Shown piece by piece: positions 1,542 through 50,851 of a DNA stretch of 64,000 nucleotides (positions are counted from its first letter, which is position 1; every line of letters starts with the position of its first letter). The notes under the pieces were generated by a model that did not search any database, was not told where the DNA came from, and worked only from the letters and a program-made list of their open reading frames with translations. The position numbers and the translations under genes are program-made. Source of the DNA: Verrucomicrobiota bacterium (GTDB taxonomy: Bacteria; Verrucomicrobiota; Verrucomicrobiia; Limisphaerales; PALSA-1396); assembly GCA_016200005.1 (NCBI GenBank), contig JACQFP010000046.1, forward strand, positions 1 to 64,000. Reading direction: 5' to 3'.

Positions 1542-4500
1542 ATGATTCGCCATCGCATGAATACTTCGTCGCGCTGGTTCGCCACGTCAATGCTGGCCGC
1601 AACGTTCGCTGCCGCCGCTGCATGCGCCGCAGATTTTCCCGCCGTTTACAACAGTGAGCCGGACACAAACGCTGCGCCGCCTTCGCCAAAGGAATCGTTG
1701 GCGAAACTAAAACTCCCGCCCGGTTTCAAGGCCACCGTGTTTGCCGCCGAGCCGGATGTGCAAAATCCCATCGCCATGGCCTGGGATGCGCGGGGCCGGT
1801 TGTGGATCGCGGAGAATTACACCTACGCCGAGCGCGCCAAGAGGTTCGATCTGCACTTGCGCGACCGCATCCTCATCTTTGAGGACAAAAACGGCGATGG
1901 GCATTTCGATTCACGCAAAGTTTTCACGGACGAGGCGCAAATGCTCACCAGCGTCGAAGTCGGTCACGGCGGCGTGTGGGCAATGTGCCCGCCGCAGTTG
2001 TTGTTCATCCCCGACAAGGATGGCGACGGAGTTCCGGACGGCCCGGCCGAAGTCGTGTTGGACGGTTTCACCGTGCCCGCGAACAATTATCATAACTTTG
2101 CTAACGGCCTGCATTGGGGGCCGGATGGCTGGCTCTATGGGCGCTGTGGCGCGTCAGCGCCCGGCAAAATCGGCGTCCCCGGCACGCCGGACAGCGCGCG
2201 GTTGCCGGTCCCGGGAGCGATCTGGCGCTATCATCCGAAGCGAAAAGTTGTGGAGGTGCTCACTTCCGGTCCGATGAATTCCTGGGGCCACGATTGGGAC
2301 GCCTATGGCGAAGCCTTCTGCATCAATACGGTCAACGGCCATCTCTGGCACGTCATTCCCGGCACGCATTATCTCGTCGGGCACACGATTGATCCCAACC
2401 CGCACACTTACGAGTTGATGGACATGCACGCCGACCATTGGCACTTCGACACGGCAAAAGGCTGGTCGAGATCGCGCGATGGTTCGTCGGATTCTCTCGG
2501 TGGCGGCCACGCGCACGTCGGGGCGATGATTTATCTCGGCGACAACTGGCCCGCTGAATATCGCGGTCATCTCTTCACGCTGAATTTGCACGGTCACCGC
2601 GTGAATCAGGAAATTCTCGAACGCTCCGGCTCCGGCTACGTGGGCAAGCACGGCGACGACTGTTTCTTTTTCGGCGACGGCTGGTTTCGCGGGCTGGAAC
2701 TGGGCTACGGTCCTGACGGCGGCGTGTTCGTGCTCGACTGGAGCGACACCGGCGAATGTCACGAAGCCGACGGCGTCCATCGCACGTCGGGCCGCATCTA
2801 CAAGATTACTTACGGCGATCCGAAGCCGTCACCGGTCACAGACCTCACGAAGCTGAGTGTGAGCGAGTTGGTGAAGTTGCAGTTGCATCCGAATGAATGG
2901 TTCGTCCGTCAGGCGTGCTTGCAACTCGCCGAACGCGCAACTGCTGGTCGCGAATTCGAAACCGCCAAGATGCAACTTCGCGAAATGTTCGCGCGTCAGA
3001 CGAATTCGGTGATGCAACTCCGCGCGATGTGGGCGCTTTACACCATCGGCGCGGCGGATGAAGATTTTCTCCGTGCCCAACTGCGTCATCCGGACGAGCA
3101 CGTTCGCACCTGGGCCATCCGCCTGCTCACAGACTTCTGGCCGCTGGACACCGTGATGTCCACGCGCGCAGTCGGTAGGGCCGACCTGCCGGTCGGCCAG
3201 ACTTTGAAGGAGTTTACTCGCCTCGCGAAAACCGATTCATCTGCCCTGATCCGTCTCGCTTTGGCCACCGTGCTGCAACGCCTGCCCGTGGCGCAGCGCG
3301 CTGAACTTGCCGCGCCGTTGCTCGCTCACGTCGAAGATGCGAATGATCACAATCTGCCATTGATGATTTGGTATGGCCTGATTCCCGTCGGCGACGCCGC
3401 GCCGGCTACGCTAGCTGCTCTGGCTGCGGATTGCCAGTTACCGCTGACGTTAAAATATATCGCCCGCCGGCTCGGCGAGGACATTGAGAAAAATCCCGCG
3501 CCGCTGAACGACTTGTTGAAGTTGACCGCAAGCAAACCGGAGCAATTTCAAACCGACATCCTGGCCGGCTTGTCTGAAGCGTTGCGCGGTTGGAGCAAGG
3601 CGCGGAAACCGGCGTCGTGGGAGGCGTTGCAAAGGGAATTGGCCGAGCCGCCAAACACTCGCCTGCGCAATCAAACCCGGGATCTCAGTGTTCTCTTTGG
3701 CGATGGCCGCGCGTTGGACGAAGTCAAGCGCGTCGCGCTGGATCGCAAAGCCGACCTCGCTTTCCGCCGTTCAGCGTTGCAGACGCTGATTGAGAACAAG
3801 CCCGCCGACTTGCGAGCCATCTGCGAGGAATTGTTGAAGGTGAGGTTTCTCAACTCGACCGCGGTTCGCGGTTTGGCCCTCTTTGACGATCCGGTGATCG
3901 GCGAAAAGCTGGCCGAGAGTTACCAGGAGTTTCATCCCTCGGAACGCGGGGCGGTCATGGACACGCTGGTTTCCCGCCCGTCGTTCGCGCGGCCGTTGCT
4001 CGAAGAAATGGCCGCCCGGCGAATTCCGCGCGCGGACATGACGCCGTTTCACGCCCGGCAGGTGCGCAGCTTCAATGACGCAACGCTCAGCAAACGACTC
4101 GCTGAAGTTTGGGGCGAACTGCGCGACAGCCCCGCCGATAAGAAGCAATTCATCGCGCAGTTGAAAACGAGACTCACGCCTGCCGCTCTCGCCGCTGCCG
4201 ACAAGAGCGCGGGCCGCCAGGTGTTCAATACCGCGTGCGCCGCGTGCCACACGCTTTACGGCCACGGCGGACAAACCGGTCCAGACCTCACCGGCTCGGG
4301 CCGCGACAATCTGGATTACCTGCTCGATAACATCGTTGATCCGAGCGCGGTCGTGAACGCGGATTTCCGCATGTCGGTCCTCGATCTCAAGGATGGCCGC
4401 ACGCTCAATGGCCTGATCGCCGCAAACACCGAGCGCACGCTCACACTGAAGACTTTGACCGAAACCTTGACACTGGAGCGCGCCGGGGTTCAAAGCGTTC

Positions 4501-4607
4501 AGCAATCTTCGCTTTCCCTGATGCCCGAAGGTTTGCTCGAAGCCTTGAACGAGACGCAGGTGCGCGATCTCATCGCCTACCTCATGCATCGGACCCAGGT
4601 GCCGTGA
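1542..4607 (+). CDS. PVC-type exported dehydrogenase with HEAT repeats and cytochrome c domain
   Basis: This is a large secreted protein of about 1021 residues. A signal peptide ends near the ACA/ADF boundary; in-frame ATGs at 1518, 1542 and 1557 are all possible and 1542 is a compromise. Residues of about 45-440 form the glucose/sorbosone-dehydrogenase-like propeller typical of Planctomycetes and Verrucomicrobia, with calcium-type DxDGDG loops (KNGDGHFD, DKDGDGVPD). A middle region of about 450-860 looks like helical HEAT repeats. A c-type heme site CAACH lies at 899-903, followed by TGPDLTGSGR, which matches the C-terminal heme-binding domain of the family. Periplasmic oxidation of sugars or alcohols with electron transfer to heme is the usual inference; the substrate is unknown. 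The gene converges on the esterase/SMP-30 gene. A palindromic repeat appears inside the reading frame near 3179. Confidence 0.9.
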   Translation: MIRHRMNTSSRWFATSMLAATFAAAAACAADFPAVYNSEPDTNAAPPSPKESLAKLKLPPGFKATVFAAEPDVQNPIAMAWDARGRLWIAENYTYAERAKRFDLHLRDRILIFEDKNGDGHFDSRKVFTDEAQMLTSVEVGHGGVWAMCPPQLLFIPDKDGDGVPDGPAEVVLDGFTVPANNYHNFANGLHWGPDGWLYGRCGASAPGKIGVPGTPDSARLPVPGAIWRYHPKRKVVEVLTSGPMNSWGHDWDAYGEAFCINTVNGHLWHVIPGTHYLVGHTIDPNPHTYELMDMHADHWHFDTAKGWSRSRDGSSDSLGGGHAHVGAMIYLGDNWPAEYRGHLFTLNLHGHRVNQEILERSGSGYVGKHGDDCFFFGDGWFRGLELGYGPDGGVFVLDWSDTGECHEADGVHRTSGRIYKITYGDPKPSPVTDLTKLSVSELVKLQLHPNEWFVRQACLQLAERATAGREFETAKMQLREMFARQTNSVMQLRAMWALYTIGAADEDFLRAQLRHPDEHVRTWAIRLLTDFWPLDTVMSTRAVGRADLPVGQTLKEFTRLAKTDSSALIRLALATVLQRLPVAQRAELAAPLLAHVEDANDHNLPLMIWYGLIPVGDAAPATLAALAADCQLPLTLKYIARRLGEDIEKNPAPLNDLLKLTASKPEQFQTDILAGLSEALRGWSKARKPASWEALQRELAEPPNTRLRNQTRDLSVLFGDGRALDEVKRVALDRKADLAFRRSALQTLIENKPADLRAICEELLKVRFLNSTAVRGLALFDDPVIGEKLAESYQEFHPSERGAVMDTLVSRPSFARPLLEEMAARRIPRADMTPFHARQVRSFNDATLSKRLAEVWGELRDSPADKKQFIAQLKTRLTPAALAAADKSAGRQVFNTACAACHTLYGHGGQTGPDLTGSGRDNLDYLLDNIVDPSAVVNADFRMSVLDLKDGRTLNGLIAANTERTLTLKTLTETLTLERAGVQSVQQSSLSLMPEGLLEALNETQVRDLIAYLMHRTQVP
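3179..3198. repeat. Palindrome inside the dehydrogenase reading frame
   Basis: ggccgacc at 3179-3186 and ggtcggcc at 3191-3198 form a perfect 8-bp stem with a four-base loop inside the coding sequence. It encodes the low-complexity linker GRADLPVG between HEAT-like helices. It resembles the short GC-rich extragenic palindromes found elsewhere in this window, and the frame is preserved. Confidence 0.5.
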
Positions 4608-4700
4608 GGCGGATCGGCATTGAATTTTGCAAGCGCACGTCGCGAAGCGCGCTGGTCTTCTGTCGCAGGTCATCCTGTGACGCGGCGACGACTAACGGAA

Positions 4701-6470
4701 TTAGAGCCTTGGCGGCGCCGGTTTGTTTGGCACATCCCAAGCGTTCGCGCCTCTGACTTTTAGTTTCCGCTTGAAGACTTTGTCGCCGCACGTGGCGAAG
4801 AGCGTGTCGAAGTTCTCGCCGCCGAAGCAGAGGTTCGCGATTCTTCCGTTCGGTGTCGGGATGATGCAGTTCACGCGGCCCGCCTGGTCGCAAACCTGGA
4901 TGCCCATGCGCGTGGCGACGTAGAGGCGACCATCTCGGTCCACCTTCATGCCGTCGGCGCCGCTGTCGTCGGCAGTGTCGGGCACGTGCAGATGAAAGTA
5001 TTGCTGCTTGTGGGCGAGTGAACCGTCGGACTGGATTTGGTAGCTGTAAACCCAGTGCGAGCGACTGTCAGCGACGTAGAGCAGCGTCTGGTCGGGCGAG
5101 AGTGTGAGGCCGTTCGAGAAGCGCAGGCCGCTGTCCACTTCCTTCTTTGTGCCGTCAGGCTTGATGTGCCAGACGCGGCTGGTGTTGGTGTTCGCGCCGG
5201 TCCAGTTGGGATTGGTGGCGTAAATGTCGCCGTTGCGTGCCACAACGATGTCATTGCCACGAAATCCTTCCGCCATGACCGTCGCTTTGGCACTGGCGTC
5301 GTATGCGAGAACTTTTTCCTCGCCGCCCGTGATTGTGTAGAGACGACCATCCGGTCCGAATGCCTGGCCACTCCCGCTACGGGTCTGCTCGGCAAAAACC
5401 GACACCGTGCCATCAAGACTGATTTTGTGGATGCGGTTGTTAGGAATGTCCGTGAAGAAAATTTCGCCTTTCGCGTTGACCGCCGGGCCTTCGGTGAATT
5501 TGTAACCTTCAGCAACCAGTTGCCAACTCTCGCCGGGCAACAGGATTTCCTTGAGTTGCGGTGAGCCGGCGCCCGCTTTGACCGGCGTGGGCCAGTCCTT
5601 CCAAAGCCAGCGCACCGCGTCGGGGAAAATGGCGGCGGCGTGTTTGCCGTTGTGACCGCCGTCGCCCCAGACGTGATTGACTTCATAACCGGCGAACGTG
5701 AGCGCGCGTTCCATCTCTTGATTCGCCATCCACCAGTCACCGGCATAGATGTTTTGATCAGCGCTGCCGTCTTGAAGAAACACACGGATGGGCTTCGGCT
5801 CGAATTTGCGAATGAGCGTCGGGTAATTATTTCCACCGCGCAGGCCGACGAACGTGCCGACGGTGCTGAAAACGCGACTGAACGCATCGGATCGCTCCCA
5901 CGCCGCGGTGAACGCGCAAATCGCGCCGCTGCTCGAACCGCCAATGGCGCGGTCGTTGCCATTCTTTGACAAACGAATCGGTCGTCCATCGGAAGTCGTC
6001 TTCTTCTCGACCTCCGGCAGGACTTCTTCGAGCACGAAGCGGGCGTAATTGTCGCCGAGGCCATCATATTCGTAGCTGCGATTGAAGCGGTCGAGCGCGT
6101 TAGTGGACGGTGCTTTCACGCGCCCGTGCATTATGAAGACGCCGATGGTCACGGGCATTTCCTTTTTGTGGATGAGATTGTCGAAGACGACCGGCGCGTT
6201 ATATTGCACGCCGTCCTGATTCACGTAAACGCACGCCGGCGTGGCGGGATCGTATTGCTTCGGTACATAGATCCAGTAATCCCGCACCGCGCCAGGAAAG
6301 ATTTTGCTGTGCTCGAACGTGAATTTCGTCACCTCGCCCTTGGGCACGCCGGGTTGTTCCTTCGAGTCGGGGCCGGGCTGGTAGTCATCGGCTGCGCGGG
6401 AAGAAATGCTTTGAGAGAGTAGCCAAAGGATTACCGTGCCGCAACGGGTGAAGGAATAAAGTGATTTCAT
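4701..6470 (-). CDS. Secreted esterase fused to SMP-30/gluconolactonase domain
   Basis: The product has 589 residues with a signal peptide at 1-26. Residues of about 45-295 match the enterochelin-esterase-like alpha/beta hydrolase fold. The nucleophile elbow is GSSSG with Ser180, an aspartate lies in the segment FLQDGSADQN (231-240), and His273 in GGHNG is the likely catalytic histidine. Residues of about 310-585 form a six-bladed SMP-30/gluconolactonase-like propeller (TEGPAVNAKGEIFFTD, FSNGLTLSPDQ). Such fusions occur in Planctomycetes and Verrucomicrobia. The likely role is hydrolysis of esters or lactones of plant or microbial carbohydrates outside the cytoplasm. The gene converges with the PVC dehydrogenase, only 93 bases away, and is preceded on its own strand by the oxoamine synthase, with a large inverted repeat between them. 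Confidence 0.88.
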   Translation of the reverse strand: MKSLYSFTRCGTVILWLLSQSISSRAADDYQPGPDSKEQPGVPKGEVTKFTFEHSKIFPGAVRDYWIYVPKQYDPATPACVYVNQDGVQYNAPVVFDNLIHKKEMPVTIGVFIMHGRVKAPSTNALDRFNRSYEYDGLGDNYARFVLEEVLPEVEKKTTSDGRPIRLSKNGNDRAIGGSSSGAICAFTAAWERSDAFSRVFSTVGTFVGLRGGNNYPTLIRKFEPKPIRVFLQDGSADQNIYAGDWWMANQEMERALTFAGYEVNHVWGDGGHNGKHAAAIFPDAVRWLWKDWPTPVKAGAGSPQLKEILLPGESWQLVAEGYKFTEGPAVNAKGEIFFTDIPNNRIHKISLDGTVSVFAEQTRSGSGQAFGPDGRLYTITGGEEKVLAYDASAKATVMAEGFRGNDIVVARNGDIYATNPNWTGANTNTSRVWHIKPDGTKKEVDSGLRFSNGLTLSPDQTLLYVADSRSHWVYSYQIQSDGSLAHKQQYFHLHVPDTADDSGADGMKVDRDGRLYVATRMGIQVCDQAGRVNCIIPTPNGRIANLCFGGENFDTLFATCGDKVFKRKLKVRGANAWDVPNKPAPPRL

Positions 6471-13267: not shown

Positions 13268-14284
13268 TCATCGGTGACGAAAACTCGCCAACAATTCCTC
13301 CGGTGCCACCGTGGCCGTGCCAACTTTGCCGACCACGATGCCAGCGGCGTGGTTGGAAATGATGGCGGCCTCGACCGGTGACGCGCCGGCGGCAGTGGCC
13401 ATCGTGAACGTCGCAATCACGGTGTCGCCTGCGCCCGAAACGTCGAACACTTCCTGCGCGACAGTGGGAATGTGGAAAGGCTTTTGTCCGCGCTGACAGA
13501 GCAACATACCTTGCTCGCCAAGGGTGACGAGCAGCAACGCCGGACGCAATTTATTGAGCAATCGATCCACCGCGCGCAACAGATTGACATCCGCCAGCGG
13601 ACTGGTGTCGCGGGTTTCATCGGGCAGGTTTGCCAGTTCAAACGTCTCCTTCCGATTGGGCGTAATCAACGAAAGGCCGGTGAGATTGAGTTGATGCACT
13701 GGCTTGGGATCGAGACTCAACCAGACACCATGCTGCCGGCAGAATTGTTTGATCTCATCGAGCAACGATTGAGTGACGACTCCCTTCCCGTAGTCGCCGA
13801 TAATGACAGCACCCGCCGACGCAATTTTGGGTTCCAGCGAGGCGAGAAGTCGACGGGTCGTCGCGGCGTCCAATCCGGTCCGGGTTTCACGGTCAACGCG
13901 CACCATCTGTTGCTTGTGGGCCACGATCCGGGTCTTGACGCTGGTTTGTCGCGACGAATGCGGCAGCAAGCCGTCGCAACCGATTCTCTGTTCACGCAAC
14001 AATTGTTTTAATTGCCTGGCTGCGCCGTCCCGACCCGTCACACTGAACAGTTCCGTGGGGATGTCGAAGGCGGTCAAATTGCGCGCCACGTTGGCAGCGC
14101 CACCGGGCATGAAACTTTCGCGTTCCAAATCCACGACCGGCACCGGGGCTTCCGGAGAAATCCGACCGACCTGTCCCCAAATGAAATGGTCCAGCATTAC
14201 GTCGCCGATGACGAGCACGCGGGCTTTACGCGCCGCCGCCAGCAACCGGTGAACGCGCGGCCTGGAAATCGTTTTGTGGTTCAT
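13268..14284 (-). CDS. rfaE1: D-glycero-beta-D-manno-heptose-7-phosphate kinase RfaE1
   Basis: A PfkB/ribokinase-fold sugar kinase of 338 residues. [20 protein letters not shown] at about 22-41 and [21 protein letters not shown] are characteristic of the RfaE/HldE kinase domain. The anion hole and catalytic base lie in [13 protein letters not shown] near the C-terminus. It phosphorylates heptose-7-phosphate at C1 on the way to ADP-heptose for lipopolysaccharide inner core, which supports a Gram-negative envelope. The adenylyltransferase half of bifunctional HldE is absent and must be encoded elsewhere. The start overlaps the thiG stop (ATGA), so the two genes are probably translated together. 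Confidence 0.92.
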
Positions 14285-15075
14285 ACTTGATTGAGGAACG
14301 CGGTTAGCGGACTCGTCGGACTCGCGGCTTCCTGTGGCACCGCCAAGCCGGATTCATACGCCGCGCGGCCGGCTTCCACTGCCATCTTGAACGCCACGGC
14401 CATTCGATTGGGATCGCTCGACACGGCGATGGCGGTATTCACGAGGACTGCATCTGCACCCATCTCCATCGCTTCCGCCGCGTGGCTCGGCGCGCCGAGT
14501 CCGGCATCCACGACCACGGGCACCGTGGCTTGTTCGATGATGAGGCGAATCTGGTCGCGCGTCTGGATGCCACGATTCGACCCGATGGGCGAACCGAGCG
14601 GCATTACGGTGGCGACGCCGACGTCCTGCAAGCGTTTCGCCAGGACCGGATCGGCATTGATATAAGGAAGCACAGTAAAACCTTCCTTCACCAAAATTTC
14701 CGCGGCTTTGAACGTCTCCACTGGATCGGGCAGCAGATAGCGCGGATCAGGATGGATTTCGAGCTTCACCCATTTGGGCAAGCCGGCGGCGACGGCGAGG
14801 CGGGCGAGTCGGACGGCTTCCTCAGCGTTCATTGCGCCGCTGGTATTCGGCAGCAACAGATATTTCTCCGGGTCGATGAATTCCAGGATGTTGGCGAATG
14901 GGTCTTTCTTGCCAGTGAGATCGGCGCGACGCAGCGCAACCGTCACCAGTTCCGTCTCGCTGGCGGCGAGGGCGTCGCGCATCGCTTCCGGGGAAGAAAA
15001 CTTGCCCGTACCCAGAATGAGCCGCGAGTGAAATGTGCGCCCGGCGATGACCAATGGACGATTCGCTAATAACAT
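14281..15075 (-). CDS. thiG: Thiazole synthase ThiG
   Basis: ThiG builds the thiazole phosphate of thiamine from deoxyxylulose phosphate, dehydroglycine and the ThiS thiocarboxylate. The 264-residue TIM barrel starting at 15075 is of normal length. It opens [15 protein letters not shown], continues ILGTGKF, and has the Schiff-base lysine Lys104 in the segment [36 protein letters not shown] and [11 protein letters not shown] form the phosphate-binding C-terminal part. The longer frame to 15159 would run into the toxin gene and adds no family sequence. It overlaps rfaE1 by four bases. A degenerate copy of its first codons lies at 15713-15781, beyond a toxin-antitoxin pair. No other thi gene is nearby. 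Confidence 0.95.
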
Positions 15076-15142
15076 CGCCGGCAGTCTAGCTGGGAAGGCA
15101 GGGTCTTGTCGAGCCAAGCGGGAGTGCAAAAGGCGGCTGGGT

Positions 15143-15397
15143 TCAGCGATACACGTCACGCCGGTTTCCCACTGTAACGATCAAAATCTGTTGAGCCCGA
15201 TCATGGATTTCGTAAATCACGCGATAATCGCCGACCCGGATTCTCCATGCGCTGCGGCCTTTGAGCTTTTTTACGTCGGGCGGGCGGGGATTGGATTCGA
15301 GTGCGTCCAAGCGCGCCAAGACGCGGCTCTCGATGTCATCCGGCAGGTGGTCTAATTCTTTCTGGACCGATTTCGGCAGGATGACGCCGTATTTCAT
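15143..15397 (-). CDS. RelE/ParE-family toxin
   Basis: An 84-residue toxin-like protein beginning [19 protein letters not shown]. The middle [22 protein letters not shown] and the ending [14 protein letters not shown] are the standard RelE/ParE superfamily core, with the strand-borne arginines and tyrosines associated with mRNA cleavage in RelE. The start ATG shares the bases ATGA with the antitoxin stop codon, which fits antitoxin-first coupled translation. A long in-frame extension upstream to 15862 is an artefact of the missing stop. The cassette lies between thiG and a duplicated thiG fragment. Confidence 0.88.
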
Positions 15398-17190: not shown

Positions 17191-18006
17191 ATGTTCAGAC
17201 CGTGCATCGATCTCCACGAGGGGAAGGTAAAACAAATCGTCGGCGGCACGTTGAGCGACGATCCGAAGACCCTGCGCACGAATTTTGTCTCCGAGCGTCC
17301 GGCGGCCTGGTTTGCGGAGCTTTACCGGCGCGATGGTTTGAAAGGCGGTCACGTGGTTATGCTTGGACCGGGCAACGAAGCGGTGGCCCGGTCGGCGTTG
17401 GCCACCTTTCCCGGCGGCCTGCAGATTGGCGGCGGCATCAACATCGACAACGCGCGCGCCTGGCTGGAGGCTGGGGCTTCGCATGTCATTGTGACTTCCT
17501 GGGTGTTTTCGGCAGGACGTGTGAATTGGGAGCGGCTCGAAAAACTGGTGGCAGCGGTCGGGCGGAATCGGTTGGTGCTGGATCTGAGCTGCCGCCGTCG
17601 CGGTCAAGAGCATGTCGTTGTCACGGATCGCTGGCAAAAATTCACGGAGTTAACCATCAGCCGCCAGACTTTGAAAATGCTGGCCGACCATTGTTCGGAG
17701 TTCCTGGTTCACGCGGCGGATGTGGAAGGACTCTGCAAAGGGATGGATCTGGAACTGATCGAAAAACTCGCGCAATGCTCGCCGCTGCCGACCACTTATG
17801 CCGGCGGCGCACGCTCGCTGGCCGATCTCGAAGAGGTGACCCGAATCGGGCACGGAAAAATTGACCTGACGATTGGGTCGGCGCTCGACATTTTCGGCGG
17901 CGATGGCGTACAGTACGCGCAAGTCGTCGCTTTCAATCGCCGACCATCCGTCGGCGGTGCGAAGCAGGCGACCCGTGGGTTTGGGGTGACGGACACCAAC
18001 AACTGA
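17191..18006 (+). CDS. hisA: HisA of the eukaryotic HIS6 type
   Basis: This is phosphoribosylformimino-5-aminoimidazole carboxamide ribotide isomerase, the fourth step of histidine synthesis, in a 271-residue TIM barrel. The sequence follows the fungal/plant HIS6 pattern rather than the usual bacterial HisA: CIDLHEGKVKQIVGG, TNFVSERPAAW, VIVTSWVF, LDLSCRRR, FLVHAADVEGLCKGMD, TYAGGARSLADL and TIGSALDIFGGD. The catalytic acid/base aspartates are the ones in CIDLH and AADVEG. No other his gene is adjacent. The DUF2062 gene follows 13 bases later and is probably co-transcribed. Confidence 0.9.
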   Translation: MFRPCIDLHEGKVKQIVGGTLSDDPKTLRTNFVSERPAAWFAELYRRDGLKGGHVVMLGPGNEAVARSALATFPGGLQIGGGINIDNARAWLEAGASHVIVTSWVFSAGRVNWERLEKLVAAVGRNRLVLDLSCRRRGQEHVVVTDRWQKFTELTISRQTLKMLADHCSEFLVHAADVEGLCKGMDLELIEKLAQCSPLPTTYAGGARSLADLEEVTRIGHGKIDLTIGSALDIFGGDGVQYAQVVAFNRRPSVGGAKQATRGFGVTDTNN

Positions 18007-18019
18007 ACTGAATCAATCC

Positions 18020-18526
18020 ATGAACGTCCGCGGCTGGCTGCAACGACATTCACTGAGACTGCTGGCGATTGCCGATACTCCGAATGCCATCGCGGGCGGG
18101 GTGGCGATAGGGATTTTCTTTGGCTTCACGCCGTTGTTTGGACTCAAGACGCTGCTGTCCATTTTCTTTGCCTGGCTGATGCGCTGCAACATTCTTGCGG
18201 CGGTCATCGCGGTGACGTTGCATGACATCGCCATTCCCTTCATGCCGGTGCTGTACCGCTGGGAATACAAAGTGGGTTACTGGATCTTGAGCGACCCACA
18301 CGAATGGCCGCCGTCGCTGGCTCAAACGCACTGGGATTTCCATGCGTGGCGAAGCTGGACGAAGTTTTTTACCGTTGGCAAACCGCTGTTGGTGGGGTCG
18401 CTGGTCATGGGTGCGCCAGTGGCGTTGCTGGTGTTCAGCCTGACAAAGGGCTTCATCATCCGCCATCGGAAAAAAGTGCACGCGCGGGAGCACCCGACAC
18501 CCGACTACGATCAGTTGTCCGATTGA
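18020..18526 (+). CDS. DUF2062 membrane protein
   Basis: A 168-residue integral membrane protein with the DUF2062 layout. A short N-terminal helix (RHSLRLLAIADTPNAIAGG) leads into a hydrophobic GVAIGIFFGFTPLFGLKTLL segment, the family hallmark, then two more membrane segments at about 57-80 and 128-150, and a basic cytoplasmic tail. The function of the domain is not established; members are often found next to glycosyltransferases. Here it follows HisA by 13 bases, which suggests shared transcription rather than shared function. Confidence 0.85.
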   Translation: MNVRGWLQRHSLRLLAIADTPNAIAGGVAIGIFFGFTPLFGLKTLLSIFFAWLMRCNILAAVIAVTLHDIAIPFMPVLYRWEYKVGYWILSDPHEWPPSLAQTHWDFHAWRSWTKFFTVGKPLLVGSLVMGAPVALLVFSLTKGFIIRHRKKVHAREHPTPDYDQLSD

Positions 18527-46893: not shown

Positions 46894-49251
46894 TTATTTT
46901 GCCGGAAGTTTCACCTTTGCCAGGTAGATGCTCGCCTTGCCTTCGTGCGAGGAATAATAGCTGACCCAGAGCAGGCCATCGTGCCAGGCGAGGCCGGGAT
47001 AACTATTGTCGCCGCCGGAAGGAAGTTTAAGAAACTCTGTGAGTTTGCCGGAGTCGGCATCCACCCACATCAACGCTGTGCGCGCCCCGCCGTCGTAGAG
47101 CCGAACCGCGGCCACAATCCGCCCATCCGCCAAGCGAAGCATGTGTGGTCCGCCGATTTTGACACCGAGGTCTTTCCACTGCCATTCTTTGTAGGGCGGC
47201 CTGGCAAGGCCCAATTGGCCGGATGCTTTTTCGCCATCGCGACGCAGCAGGCACAACGCGGTATCATCGGGCAGAAAGACAATCGACGTTTCATTCGGAT
47301 GACCTTCATCGAAAAGTTTCGGCACAAGTGTCTCGAACCTCTTGCCGTCCTTGCTGGCGTAAAGCCGGATGAAGTTTTCTGCCGTCGTGTCGTAGCCGAC
47401 GCTGTAAGCAGTTTTCTTGTGCCACGTCGTCCGCCACAGCCAGAAGTTCGGGTCACCGATTTTGACCGGCTCACTCCAGTTGTGTCCATCCTTGGAAAAC
47501 CAGGCGAGCGATTGATGCTTGAACTCTGCCGGCTGGTGCAACGCCGCCGCGCCGCTGAGCATCAACTGACCGCCCGGCGTGATCGTGATCTTGGCGTCGC
47601 GCAAATCGCTTTTGTCACCAGTGATCAACGCGGCGGAGCTCCAGGTCTTGCCGTCACTTGAGGTAATGATTCGCAACGCGCCATCGGGCGAGACGTGCGC
47701 CTGGCCTTCACGAAACACGCAAAACCAGTTGCCTTTGAACCAAACCAAATCAGTGAAGGCATTGTGCGGGGCTTGGTCCCAGATTTTGCGGACTTCAACG
47801 ACTTCCGACTCGTTCCGTTGTCGGATTGAATCTGGTTGTCCGCCGGCGTGCAACAGAGCTTTTGTTTCCGCGACCGTGTGTGTGTACTTTGGATTGTTTG
47901 CCAGGTTGGTGAATTCATGAGGGTCCTTGTCATGGTCGTAAAGTTCCACGCCAGCTTTGCCGTCGTCCCATTCGGTGTAGCGCCAGCGTTCGGTGCGAAC
48001 ACTGCGGCCCATGATTTGGCGACCGTTCTCCGTCCGGGTCACTTGCGTGTAGGCCGGTTTGGTCCATCGAGCGTTCGGGTTGTTCAACAGCGGACGCAGA
48101 CTTTGGCCAGCGAGATTTTTTGGCGCGGGCAGGTCGCAGAGATCCGCCAGCGTCGGGTATAGGTCCACAAACTCCACTGTGCGCCCGCTGCCCTTGCCTT
48201 GCGCTTTCTGGCTCGGAGCAGCAATGATCAACGGGACGCGCGCCGATTCCTCAAACAAACTCATCTTCATCCACTGCCGGTGCTCGCCGAGCAGGTAACC
48301 GTGATCTCCCCAGAGCACGACGATGGTATTCTCCCAGAGCTTCAAGCGATCCAGCGCCTCGAGCAGTTTGCCGACCTGGGCGTCCATGAACGAAATGGCG
48401 GCGAAGTAAGCGCGCATGGCTTCACGCTGTTGTGGCTCGGTCAAACCCCAGTCCGGCGGCTTGGTGTAAAGCGCGACCGGCGGGATGTCGGCGAGATCGT
48501 TCGCGGGGTTTTGCGCCAGTTTTATCTTTTCCAACGGATACATGTCGAAATAGTTTTTCGGCGCAATGTAGGGACAATGTGGACGGTAAAACCCAACCGC
48601 GAGGAAGAACGGCTTGTCCTTGTGTTCTTCCAACAAACGAACCGCCGCGGCCGCGCCCTTGCCATCGGTTTGTTCTTCATCCGTGCCGTCCGCGGCGAGA
48701 AACGCCAGGGCGCTGCCAAGACCGCGCCTGGGTGTGTAGTTGGTGAGTTTGCCTTCCTCGTCCTTGTCGCGACCACGTGGATTCACCACCTCGTCCCACG
48801 ATTGCGGATCGTCCAGACCGTCGGTGCCGATTTGTCCGGGGACGCCATAATGAAAAATCTTCCCGACTCGTGCGACGAAGTAACCATGCTGACGAAACAA
48901 TTGCGGCAGCGTGACGACATCCGGCAGCGTCGATTTACGAAAATCAACCTTGAGATCAAAGATGCGCGTCGTGTCCGGACGCAAACCAGTCAGCAGTGAA
49001 ACGCGACTCGGACTGCAAAGCGGGAATTGGCAATACGCGCGGTCGAAACGAACACCACGCGCGGCGATCCGGTCGATGTTCGGCGATTTCACCAGCGAAT
49101 GGCCGTAACATCCGAGCGCATTGTTCAGATCATCAGCGGCGATGAAGAGAACATTCGGTTTGCGTGATCGTGTCTGGGCGGATTCAACTGCCGGAGAAAT
49201 CGCAGCCGTGAGACAACAGCAAACCAGAAGGATGGAGAATTGTCTTTTCAT
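46894..49251 (-). CDS. Sulfatase fused to a sialidase/BNR-like domain
   Basis: A 785-residue secreted protein with a signal peptide at 1-25. The sulfatase domain (about 30-470) begins [20 protein letters not shown] with metal-binding Asp40 and Asp41. The formylglycine site is Cys79 in CSPSR, and [15 protein letters not shown] and [14 protein letters not shown] fit iduronate-2-sulfatase-like members. The C-terminal 300 residues ([29 protein letters not shown]-like end) look like a six-bladed exo-alpha-sialidase/BNR propeller. The protein would remove sulfate from a glycan while binding or trimming it. An anaerobic or FGE-type maturase must be encoded elsewhere. Confidence 0.9.
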
Positions 49252-49521: not shown

Positions 49522-50019
49522 ATGTCCAGTCGTGGAGAAAAGTTGGGGGGTTCTCGTCGTGTCTTTCTCGAGCCGATGGCGATTTTTATTCTCTGCTGTT
49601 CGATTCATGCGCAAACGAACGAAACCCAGCCAGCCGCTACGACACCTTCTTCAAACCTTGACGCGAGCCGCGTGTTCGCGCTGGGCATGATCGAAACCGG
49701 GAATGATGATCGCGGCGTAGGGCGCGCCGGCGAAATCAGCCGCTATCAAATTCATCCCGCGGTCTGGAAAGCGTATTCAAACTCGCACGAGTATCAGAAT
49801 CCCGAAGTCTCGCTCGAGGTGGCGCGGCAGCATTGGACGACGCTGAGCAATTATTTTAAAGAGAAAGCCGCGCGCGAGCCGAGCGATTTCGACATGTATG
49901 TTTTATGGAACACGCGCTACGGGTTTTATGCCGCAAAAGGATTTGATCCGCTGCGCTTGCCGCGGTTTGTACAGGACCGCGCTCAAAGGTTTGTGAATCT
50001 GGTCAACCGCAAGGGTTGA
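49522..50019 (+). CDS. Exported transglycosylase-like protein
   Basis: A 165-residue protein with a signal-like hydrophobic stretch (PMAIFILCCSIHAQT) near 18-32. The core FALGMIETGNDDRGVGRAGEISRYQIHP resembles the first part of an SLT-type lytic transglycosylase or lysozyme-like fold, with Glu in the MIETG box at the catalytic position. The rest has FDMYVLWNTRYGFY and a helical end. It is shorter than most soluble transglycosylases, so activity on peptidoglycan is plausible but unproven. The gene is divergent from the sulfatase, 270 bases away. Confidence 0.65.
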   Translation: MSSRGEKLGGSRRVFLEPMAIFILCCSIHAQTNETQPAATTPSSNLDASRVFALGMIETGNDDRGVGRAGEISRYQIHPAVWKAYSNSHEYQNPEVSLEVARQHWTTLSNYFKEKAAREPSDFDMYVLWNTRYGFYAAKGFDPLRLPRFVQDRAQRFVNLVNRKG

Positions 50020-50470
50020 ACGTTTGCCAAACTTCGCGGGCAGGCTCGCCAGCCTTTGCCCATCGCTTATGCTTCCGCAAGAGCCTTGTTTTGCCCACAG
50101 GCTGAATATCGGCAGGTAAAAGATGAGCAGACGATACAACCGCCGTGAGAGGTTGGGCTTCCCGGCCAGGCAAACGCCCCTTGAACAACATGTGCCCAAA
50201 AGTTGTGCTGCGCGATGAGAGGCCGAAGGCGGCTTTGGGCGGCGCTGGCGGACGCAAAATTCCCAACGCCATCTTTGGTGTCCAGACTGGGTATATTGGA
50301 CTCGGAAGGTCGATGGAGGGCGCGATTTCCGCGCCGCGCCGGCACAGTATTTCAAAATGCCCGGTTACAAGATCGGTGCCCGCGCCCTGGTGAGTGTGGT
50401 GACCTTCAATCCCAAGTCAGGCGAGGTTCATGGCGCGTCACGCTAACGTCACCGGCAGATGCCTTGCCGA
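50020..50470. other. Gene-poor stretch with a possible coding remnant
   Basis: No intact gene is supported. Overlapping frames of 82-150 codons here have no start signals and Arg/Pro-rich translations. From about 50219 to the stop at 50446 one frame without an early start reads like degraded protein-coding sequence (see the separate entry). Confidence 0.4.
50219..50446 (+). pseudogene. Possible degraded coding remnant
   Basis: From 50219 this frame stays open to a TAA at 50444-50446. Its last third reads FRAAPAQYFKMPGYKIGARA and then ends FNPKSGEVHGASR, which has protein-like composition. The only ATG is at 50357, 29 codons before the end, and no Shine-Dalgarno precedes it. It could be a decayed gene end or a dispersed repeat; chance cannot be excluded. 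No family match is claimed. Confidence 0.3.
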
Positions 50471-50677
50471 TCACGAACGCGCATGGGCGAGCGCCGGTGT
50501 CTGGGTCGCTTGAGGTGCCATTGCGGGAGATGCCGCGTCTGGCTTGGGACTGGCGACTGGGTTCGCATTGTCCGGACCCATCTTGCTGTTCCGGAGCAGT
50601 AAATGGATGAGGGCGACGTAGGCGCCAACCATTACACAGACTCCAATGAAGATCAGAATCGACTCGATGCCAATCAT
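50471..50677 (-). CDS. Small single-pass membrane protein, 68 aa
   Basis: The start ATG at 50677 follows aggaga at seven bases, one of the best Shine-Dalgarno sequences in the window. The product begins MIGIESILIFIGVCVMVGAY, a membrane helix that runs to about residue 27, then a short basic turn and a Pro/Ala-rich tail of some 40 residues. It resembles the small, disordered-tail membrane proteins seen next to secretion or stress loci, but no family is recognised. It is divergent from the Tat-exported phosphoesterase. Confidence 0.65.
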   Translation of the reverse strand: MIGIESILIFIGVCVMVGAYVALIHLLLRNSKMGPDNANPVASPKPDAASPAMAPQATQTPALAHARS

Positions 50678-50851
50678 AGCGTTCTCCTGTTCGTTTCGGA
50701 ATAATGACCATCATTATTCCTGCGTTTGGTTAAAAAGTAAGTCCGACGGTGGTTCTGCACTCCACGAATGTTGCCAAATACCAGGCGGATTTTGTCCGCG
50801 ATTGATCGGTTTTATTTGCCAAGCAGAGGGGCCGACAGTTAAAAGCAGCAC

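Follow-up and report, generated by a model that had tools for sequence, protein, structure and literature searches.

The hisA gene in the window (the whole 64,000-nt stretch of verrucomicrobial DNA analyzed here) is ordinary for its lineage and belongs to a family of enzymes already known, whose name misleads. The HIS6-type hisA family is bacterial, old, and mobile, and the window copy is no recent transfer from a eukaryote. Very probably, the window gene is the cell's sole gene for ProFAR isomerase, derives from this mainly bacterial family, and was inherited within the order of the bacterium, with no recent eukaryotic source. Its product (HisA, EC 5.3.1.16), an eight-stranded TIM barrel, would carry out the fourth step of histidine synthesis, the Amadori rearrangement of ProFAR to PRFAR, and the HIS6 branch would serve as a one-for-one replacement of standard HisA.

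The window HisA matched the NCBIfam profile TIGR02129 (hisA_euk) with 373.8 bits (E = 4.7e-112; cutoff, 229.3 bits). The alignment was full length, joining residues 2 to 250 of the protein to positions 3 to 255 of the 255-position model. The score against TIGR00007, the profile for standard HisA, was only 74 bits, below the cutoff of 228.95 bits. When the protein was compared with PDB sequences, the top two were 9fcf, the plant enzyme, at 282 bits and 2agk, yeast His6, at 236 bits; the third was a HisF construct at 36 bits. An AlphaFold2 model, built from 60 aligned proteins from the window and from related loci, had a mean pLDDT of 92.6. Its best structural counterpart was ligand-bound plant HISN3 (9fcg; Z = 39.3, 1.6 Å over 253 residues), followed by yeast His6 (2agk; Z = 33.8, 1.3 Å over 226 residues), and ordinary HisA, PriA, and HisF structures ranged from Z = 26.6 downward. 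The first-pass annotation had called the protein HIS6-type, not standard bacterial HisA, and the two profile scores agree with that call; the motifs that it quoted are all present in the translation. It had also raised the possibility that the match is limited to generic TIM-barrel positions. Because the match is full length and family specific by profile, PDB, and fold scores, it exceeds such positions.

TABLE 1 Features of the window hisA locus
Feature	Position	Strand	Basis or remarks
hisA, predicted HIS6-type (TIGR02129 hisA_euk) ProFAR isomerase	17191..18006	+	ATG start, 271 aa; profile score, structural model
Asp7 codon, likely catalytic Asp	17209..17211	+	D in 235/237 family rows and 10/10 standard HisA rows
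Asp131 codon, DLSC motif	17581..17583	+	Invariant in 237/237 family rows
His174 codon	17710..17712	+	Invariant in 237/237 family rows; Thr in 10/10 standard HisA rows
Glu179 codon	17725..17727	+	Invariant in 237/237 family rows; Asp in 10/10 standard HisA rows
DUF2062 gene, neighbor; functional link only conjectural	18020..18526	+	13 bp past the hisA stop

The residues in Table 1 (Asp7, Asp131, His174, and Glu179) were derived from the present alignment, not from a family definition. The window protein resembles the named TIGR02129 enzymes, yeast HIS6 and plant HISN3, in Asp131, His174, and Glu179 and in its fold; it lacks a one-residue insertion found in yeast His6 and extra loop residues found in the Medicago enzyme. 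With standard HisA it shares the fold and, presumably, the reaction, and it keeps Asp7, Trp148, and glycines 81, 82, 180, 205, 206, and 229. It differs at two active-site positions, where the Thr and Asp of the standard YTD..xDG motif are replaced by His174 and Glu179; this contrast had no exceptions among the 10 standard and 56 HIS6-type rows on which it was scored. These residues would be the HIS6-branch version of the two positions. In the Asp7 column, the exceptions were one gap and one Asn, the latter in the Medicago row because 9fcf and 9fcg are, by their PDB titles, the engineered D57N mutant. The ligand-bound crystals of plant HISN3 (D57N), Salmonella HisA (D7N D176A), and Mycobacterium tuberculosis PriA (D11N) all have an Asp mutated to Asn. 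Since Asp7 aligns with the Asp of all 10 standard HisA rows and the alignment starts with model residue 1 at Medicago residue 51, Asp7 corresponds to D57, and it would occupy the position of the Asp mutated in all three enzymes. What Asp7, His174, and Glu179 do chemically in the window protein is inferred. The Asp131 column holds G (9 rows) or S (1 row) in standard HisA; the sequence alignment puts Asp131 two residues ahead of the standard enzyme's strand Asp, and we do not claim it as a substitute for that residue.

The first-pass annotation had suggested a search for a second, standard hisA in the genome. None was found in the assembly (6.54 Mb, 87 contigs), which is 96% complete, so that a gene may still lie in the missing part. 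Two PF00977 matches were over the cutoff, the window hisA and C77:30521-31225, which is HisF by its sequence (RVIPCLDVHDGKVTRGVQF); a third match was under the cutoff. The other his genes are spread over four other contigs, with hisG and hisH on C36, hisB on C9, hisD on C50, and hisI with hisF on C77. Their presence favors a ProFAR isomerase role for the window hisA, and with the his genes so scattered, an isolated hisA is nothing special. The first-pass annotation had read the neighboring DUF2062 gene, standing in place of a his operon, as a sign of separate inheritance; that reading is not supported, given this scatter and the rarity of the neighbor, which was found at just 2 of the 29 loci from relatives in the order (26 of them with at least 600 nt downstream). 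An operon of hisA with the DUF2062 gene was dropped as a candidate on the same count, and this neighbor lends the HisA assignment no functional support. Elsewhere in the window, a PfkB-family kinase gene is adjacent to a ThiG gene (13268 to 15159, minus strand).

HIS6-type hisA is nearly universal in the order, where the gene passes the TIGR02129 cutoff in 53 of 58 genomes, the window's own included. One of the 53 (G305) has the gene split over two frames (C11, 9320 to 10065). In two further genomes, G312 and G342, the gene is broken or partial and scores under the cutoff (the G312 pieces are at C228, 1448 to 2192), and three (G330, G331, and G340) match only weakly, with scores like that of HisF. 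The split genes in G312 and G305, both draft genomes, reflect either sequencing error or decay.

Across the phylum sample of 288 genomes, 123 had the HIS6 type, 147 the standard type (139 over the TIGR00007 cutoff plus 8 weaker or partial matches counted as standard), none had both, and 18 had neither, although one of the 18 (G246) has a hisA_euk piece of 92.6 bits at a contig end. Mutual exclusion was highly significant by Fisher's test (P = 2e-62), but the genomes are related and the P value is only indicative. Both types occur within single families: 5 HIS6-type and 19 standard genomes in family f5, and 24 HIS6-type and 3 standard (one of the 3 under the cutoff) in family f3. The same is true of genera. 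In genus g17, one genome (G140) is HIS6-type and two (G085 and G260) are standard, the latter two genes lying in a common neighborhood that is absent from the 16-kb locus of G140. Genus g3 has the HIS6 type in 15 of 22 genomes, the standard type in 3, and neither in 4. One g3 genome, G051, has its standard HisA in a tightly packed his operon that includes a HAD-HisB fusion (L282; C22, 6694 to 13717), likely an operon-borne displacement in a HIS6-rich genus. Thus, the two types replace each other at times, in a phylum-wide patchwork.

The family extends well beyond this phylum. A pattern search of named bacterial and archaeal genomes gave at least 594 matches, 580 of which encode relatives. The best 80 of the at least 580, ranked against the plant enzyme, give the spread of the family and no frequencies, and many are metagenome bins; they represent at least 14 NCBI phyla (a few rows have no phylum) and include isolates of Desulfobacter, Endozoicomonas, Pelagicoccus, Kineothrix, Cohnella, and Roseburia. 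A plasmid of Paenibacillus cellulosilyticus carries a hisA_euk (WP_110045644.1, hisA in RefSeq) that is 52% identical to the window protein over 91% of the query. Among the genes listed, this copy has no his gene within 6 kb; it differs from the window copy in being plasmid borne and in belonging to a species of the Bacillota.

HIS6-type genes were also seen on viral contigs. One from IMG/VR (L146, 72 kb; gene at 4001 to 4729) has it between GroEL and transglycosylase/endolysin-like genes, with Hsp20 and M18 peptidase genes nearby; a second contig (L145, 14 kb) has it at 4001 to 4756. A 4.5-kb fecal contig recorded as "Bacteriophage sp." (MT839235.1, 3639 to 4367) encodes a 52% identical protein, and two records of Acinetobacter phage MD-2021a have a gene annotated hisA with 26% identity.

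We infer that the window protein has ProFAR isomerase activity, and genetic context supports this. In Cohnella fermenti (L101), the his operon reads hisG, hisD, hisB, hisH, hisA_euk, hisF, hisIE, so that the HIS6-type gene holds the hisA position. It is very unlikely that the protein has the HIS6 fold but a different job, for example, as a promiscuous isomerase, with HisA activity coming from an unrecognized gene. That family members lie mostly outside his operons would fit such a reading: of 233 loci (flanks of 1.5 to 4 kb, shorter at contig ends), just 4, all in Paenibacillaceae, have hisF next to hisA_euk, and a fifth, weak hisF match (L179) coincides with a second hisA copy. However, the Cohnella operon, the mutual exclusion in 288 genomes, and the absence of any other HisA candidate from the PF00977 search of the window's genome all argue for ProFAR isomerase. 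Among other settings, the gene is beside mla genes in Desulfobacter and downstream of dapB and fbp in Kineothrix. At L179 (G157, C42), two hisA_euk genes of equal score lie 1.9 kb apart (48040 to 48789 and 49977 to 50726), by tandem duplication or as an effect of assembly.

The first-pass annotation had left two histories open, horizontal transfer and an old bacterial branch from which the eukaryotic gene came. The distribution favors an old bacterial family and speaks against transfer from a eukaryote, and the label "Eukaryotic-type" proved misleading. In all comparisons, the eukaryotic sample was two sequences, yeast His6 and Medicago HISN3. Identity to the window protein was lowest for yeast (47.8%, rank 236 of 236 rows), and Medicago ranked 208th (53.4%), below the median of 57.8%; the nearest rows were from the window's own order, at up to 75.2%. 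That a fungal or plant HIS6 gene was transferred into this bacterial lineage is thus extremely improbable. The motifs common to the window protein, yeast, and plants would suit such a transfer, and the TIGR02129 description is said to propose one for Fibrobacter. Against it stand the near universality of the gene in the order, the bacterial nearest rows, and trees of 87 and 102 rows in which the two eukaryotic sequences join different bacterial groups, neither of them next to the window's order.

The window copy would instead have been inherited within its order, and presumably its vertical inheritance is ancient. In the trees it grouped with its order and two named Verrucomicrobiales bins (L106 and L084), a position that points to a verrucomicrobial organism. 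In the 102-row tree, the rows of the order did not form one clean clade, and one (L260) stood apart; 6 label changes were counted, a number inflated by the other labels borne by the window protein and the two named bins, and at least 2 were forced by starred branches. This leaves room for some nonvertical inheritance within the order. We consider it rather unlikely, but well worth weighing, that the order acquired the family from another bacterial phylum and not from the ancestor of its own. The patchy spread, the replacements inside families and genera, and the intermixing of phyla in the 87- and 102-row trees are consistent with such an acquisition, but near universality in the order argues against it. 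When insertion, deletion, and motif columns were removed, the order grouped with other verrucomicrobial families (88/95), a grouping absent from the 102-row tree.

For these trees, two duplicates of the window protein were dropped. The 87-row tree omits 27 of the 37 Bacillota outside Paenibacillaceae, the 102-row tree was thinned by identity from 237 rows, and the control tree leaves out 32 of the 102. Bootstraps had not settled in the latter two. Rooting with 10 standard HisA proteins and the genome's own HisF gave outgroup branches of 5 to 9.7 changes per column and a root among verrucomicrobial rows, and was not used.

Identity between the yeast and plant proteins is only 44.6%; yeast reaches 55.6% with one bacterium (L007) and the plant 60.2% with another (L069). 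Yeast fell with verrucomicrobial rows in the 87-row tree (99/88, 99/91, and 99/95, the widest set including two viral-contig rows) and in the 102-row tree (100/93 and 96/93). Its one-residue insertion, located after TSxLF, recurs in 46 rows, each of them from the Verrucomicrobiota (families f2, f3, f5, f8, f11, and f23). It is missing from the remaining 190 rows, among them the window protein, the plant, the order's 29 rows, three rows from the same class families (L020, L032, and L198), and both viral rows. A clade of yeast plus plant was rejected on the full data (P = 0.00033 and P = 0.021), and not with the insertion, motif regions, and long rows removed (P = 0.083); the tested clades were named after a tree was seen, which weakens all of the AU P values. 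In the reduced control tree, yeast stays only with the wider verrucomicrobial group that contains the window protein (88/95). A clade of the 23 other rows of yeast's clade (21 bacterial, 2 from viral contigs) without yeast was not rejected (P = 0.269), so yeast may be sister to these rows and not nested among them. Yeast is one of the longest branches, and the sample, a single fungus and a single plant, is thin. The placement of the plant varied, from none in the 87-row tree to Lachnospiraceae-type Bacillota in the 102-row tree (100/96) and Fibrobacterota in the control tree (91/75) and the outgroup-rooted tree (87/25). We tentatively suggest, at somewhat less than even confidence, that HIS6 had separate origins: in fungi from a donor within the verrucomicrobial clade that carries the insertion and an AMNRWQ motif, and in plants from some other lineage of bacteria, one that was Fibrobacterota-, Desulfobacterota-, Armatimonadota-, or Lachnospiraceae-like. 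Perhaps, then, the gene passed from bacteria to fungi and plants, possibly twice.

The pathway of histidine synthesis is absent from animals. A 2024 paper by Witek and coworkers reportedly treats the structure and evolution of plant HISN3. In the literature titles and abstract openings that we searched, a coverage that takes in few subscription papers, neither the bacterial spread of hisA_euk nor a verrucomicrobial origin of fungal HIS6 was described. Despite its eukaryotic database label, the gene encodes an established second form of bacterial HisA that trades places with the standard enzyme, one for one, in genomes across a phylum and in some cases inside a single genus. The swap provides a natural displacement system in which two active-site versions of one enzyme can be compared, and the gene also points to a testable bacterial source of fungal and plant HIS6.
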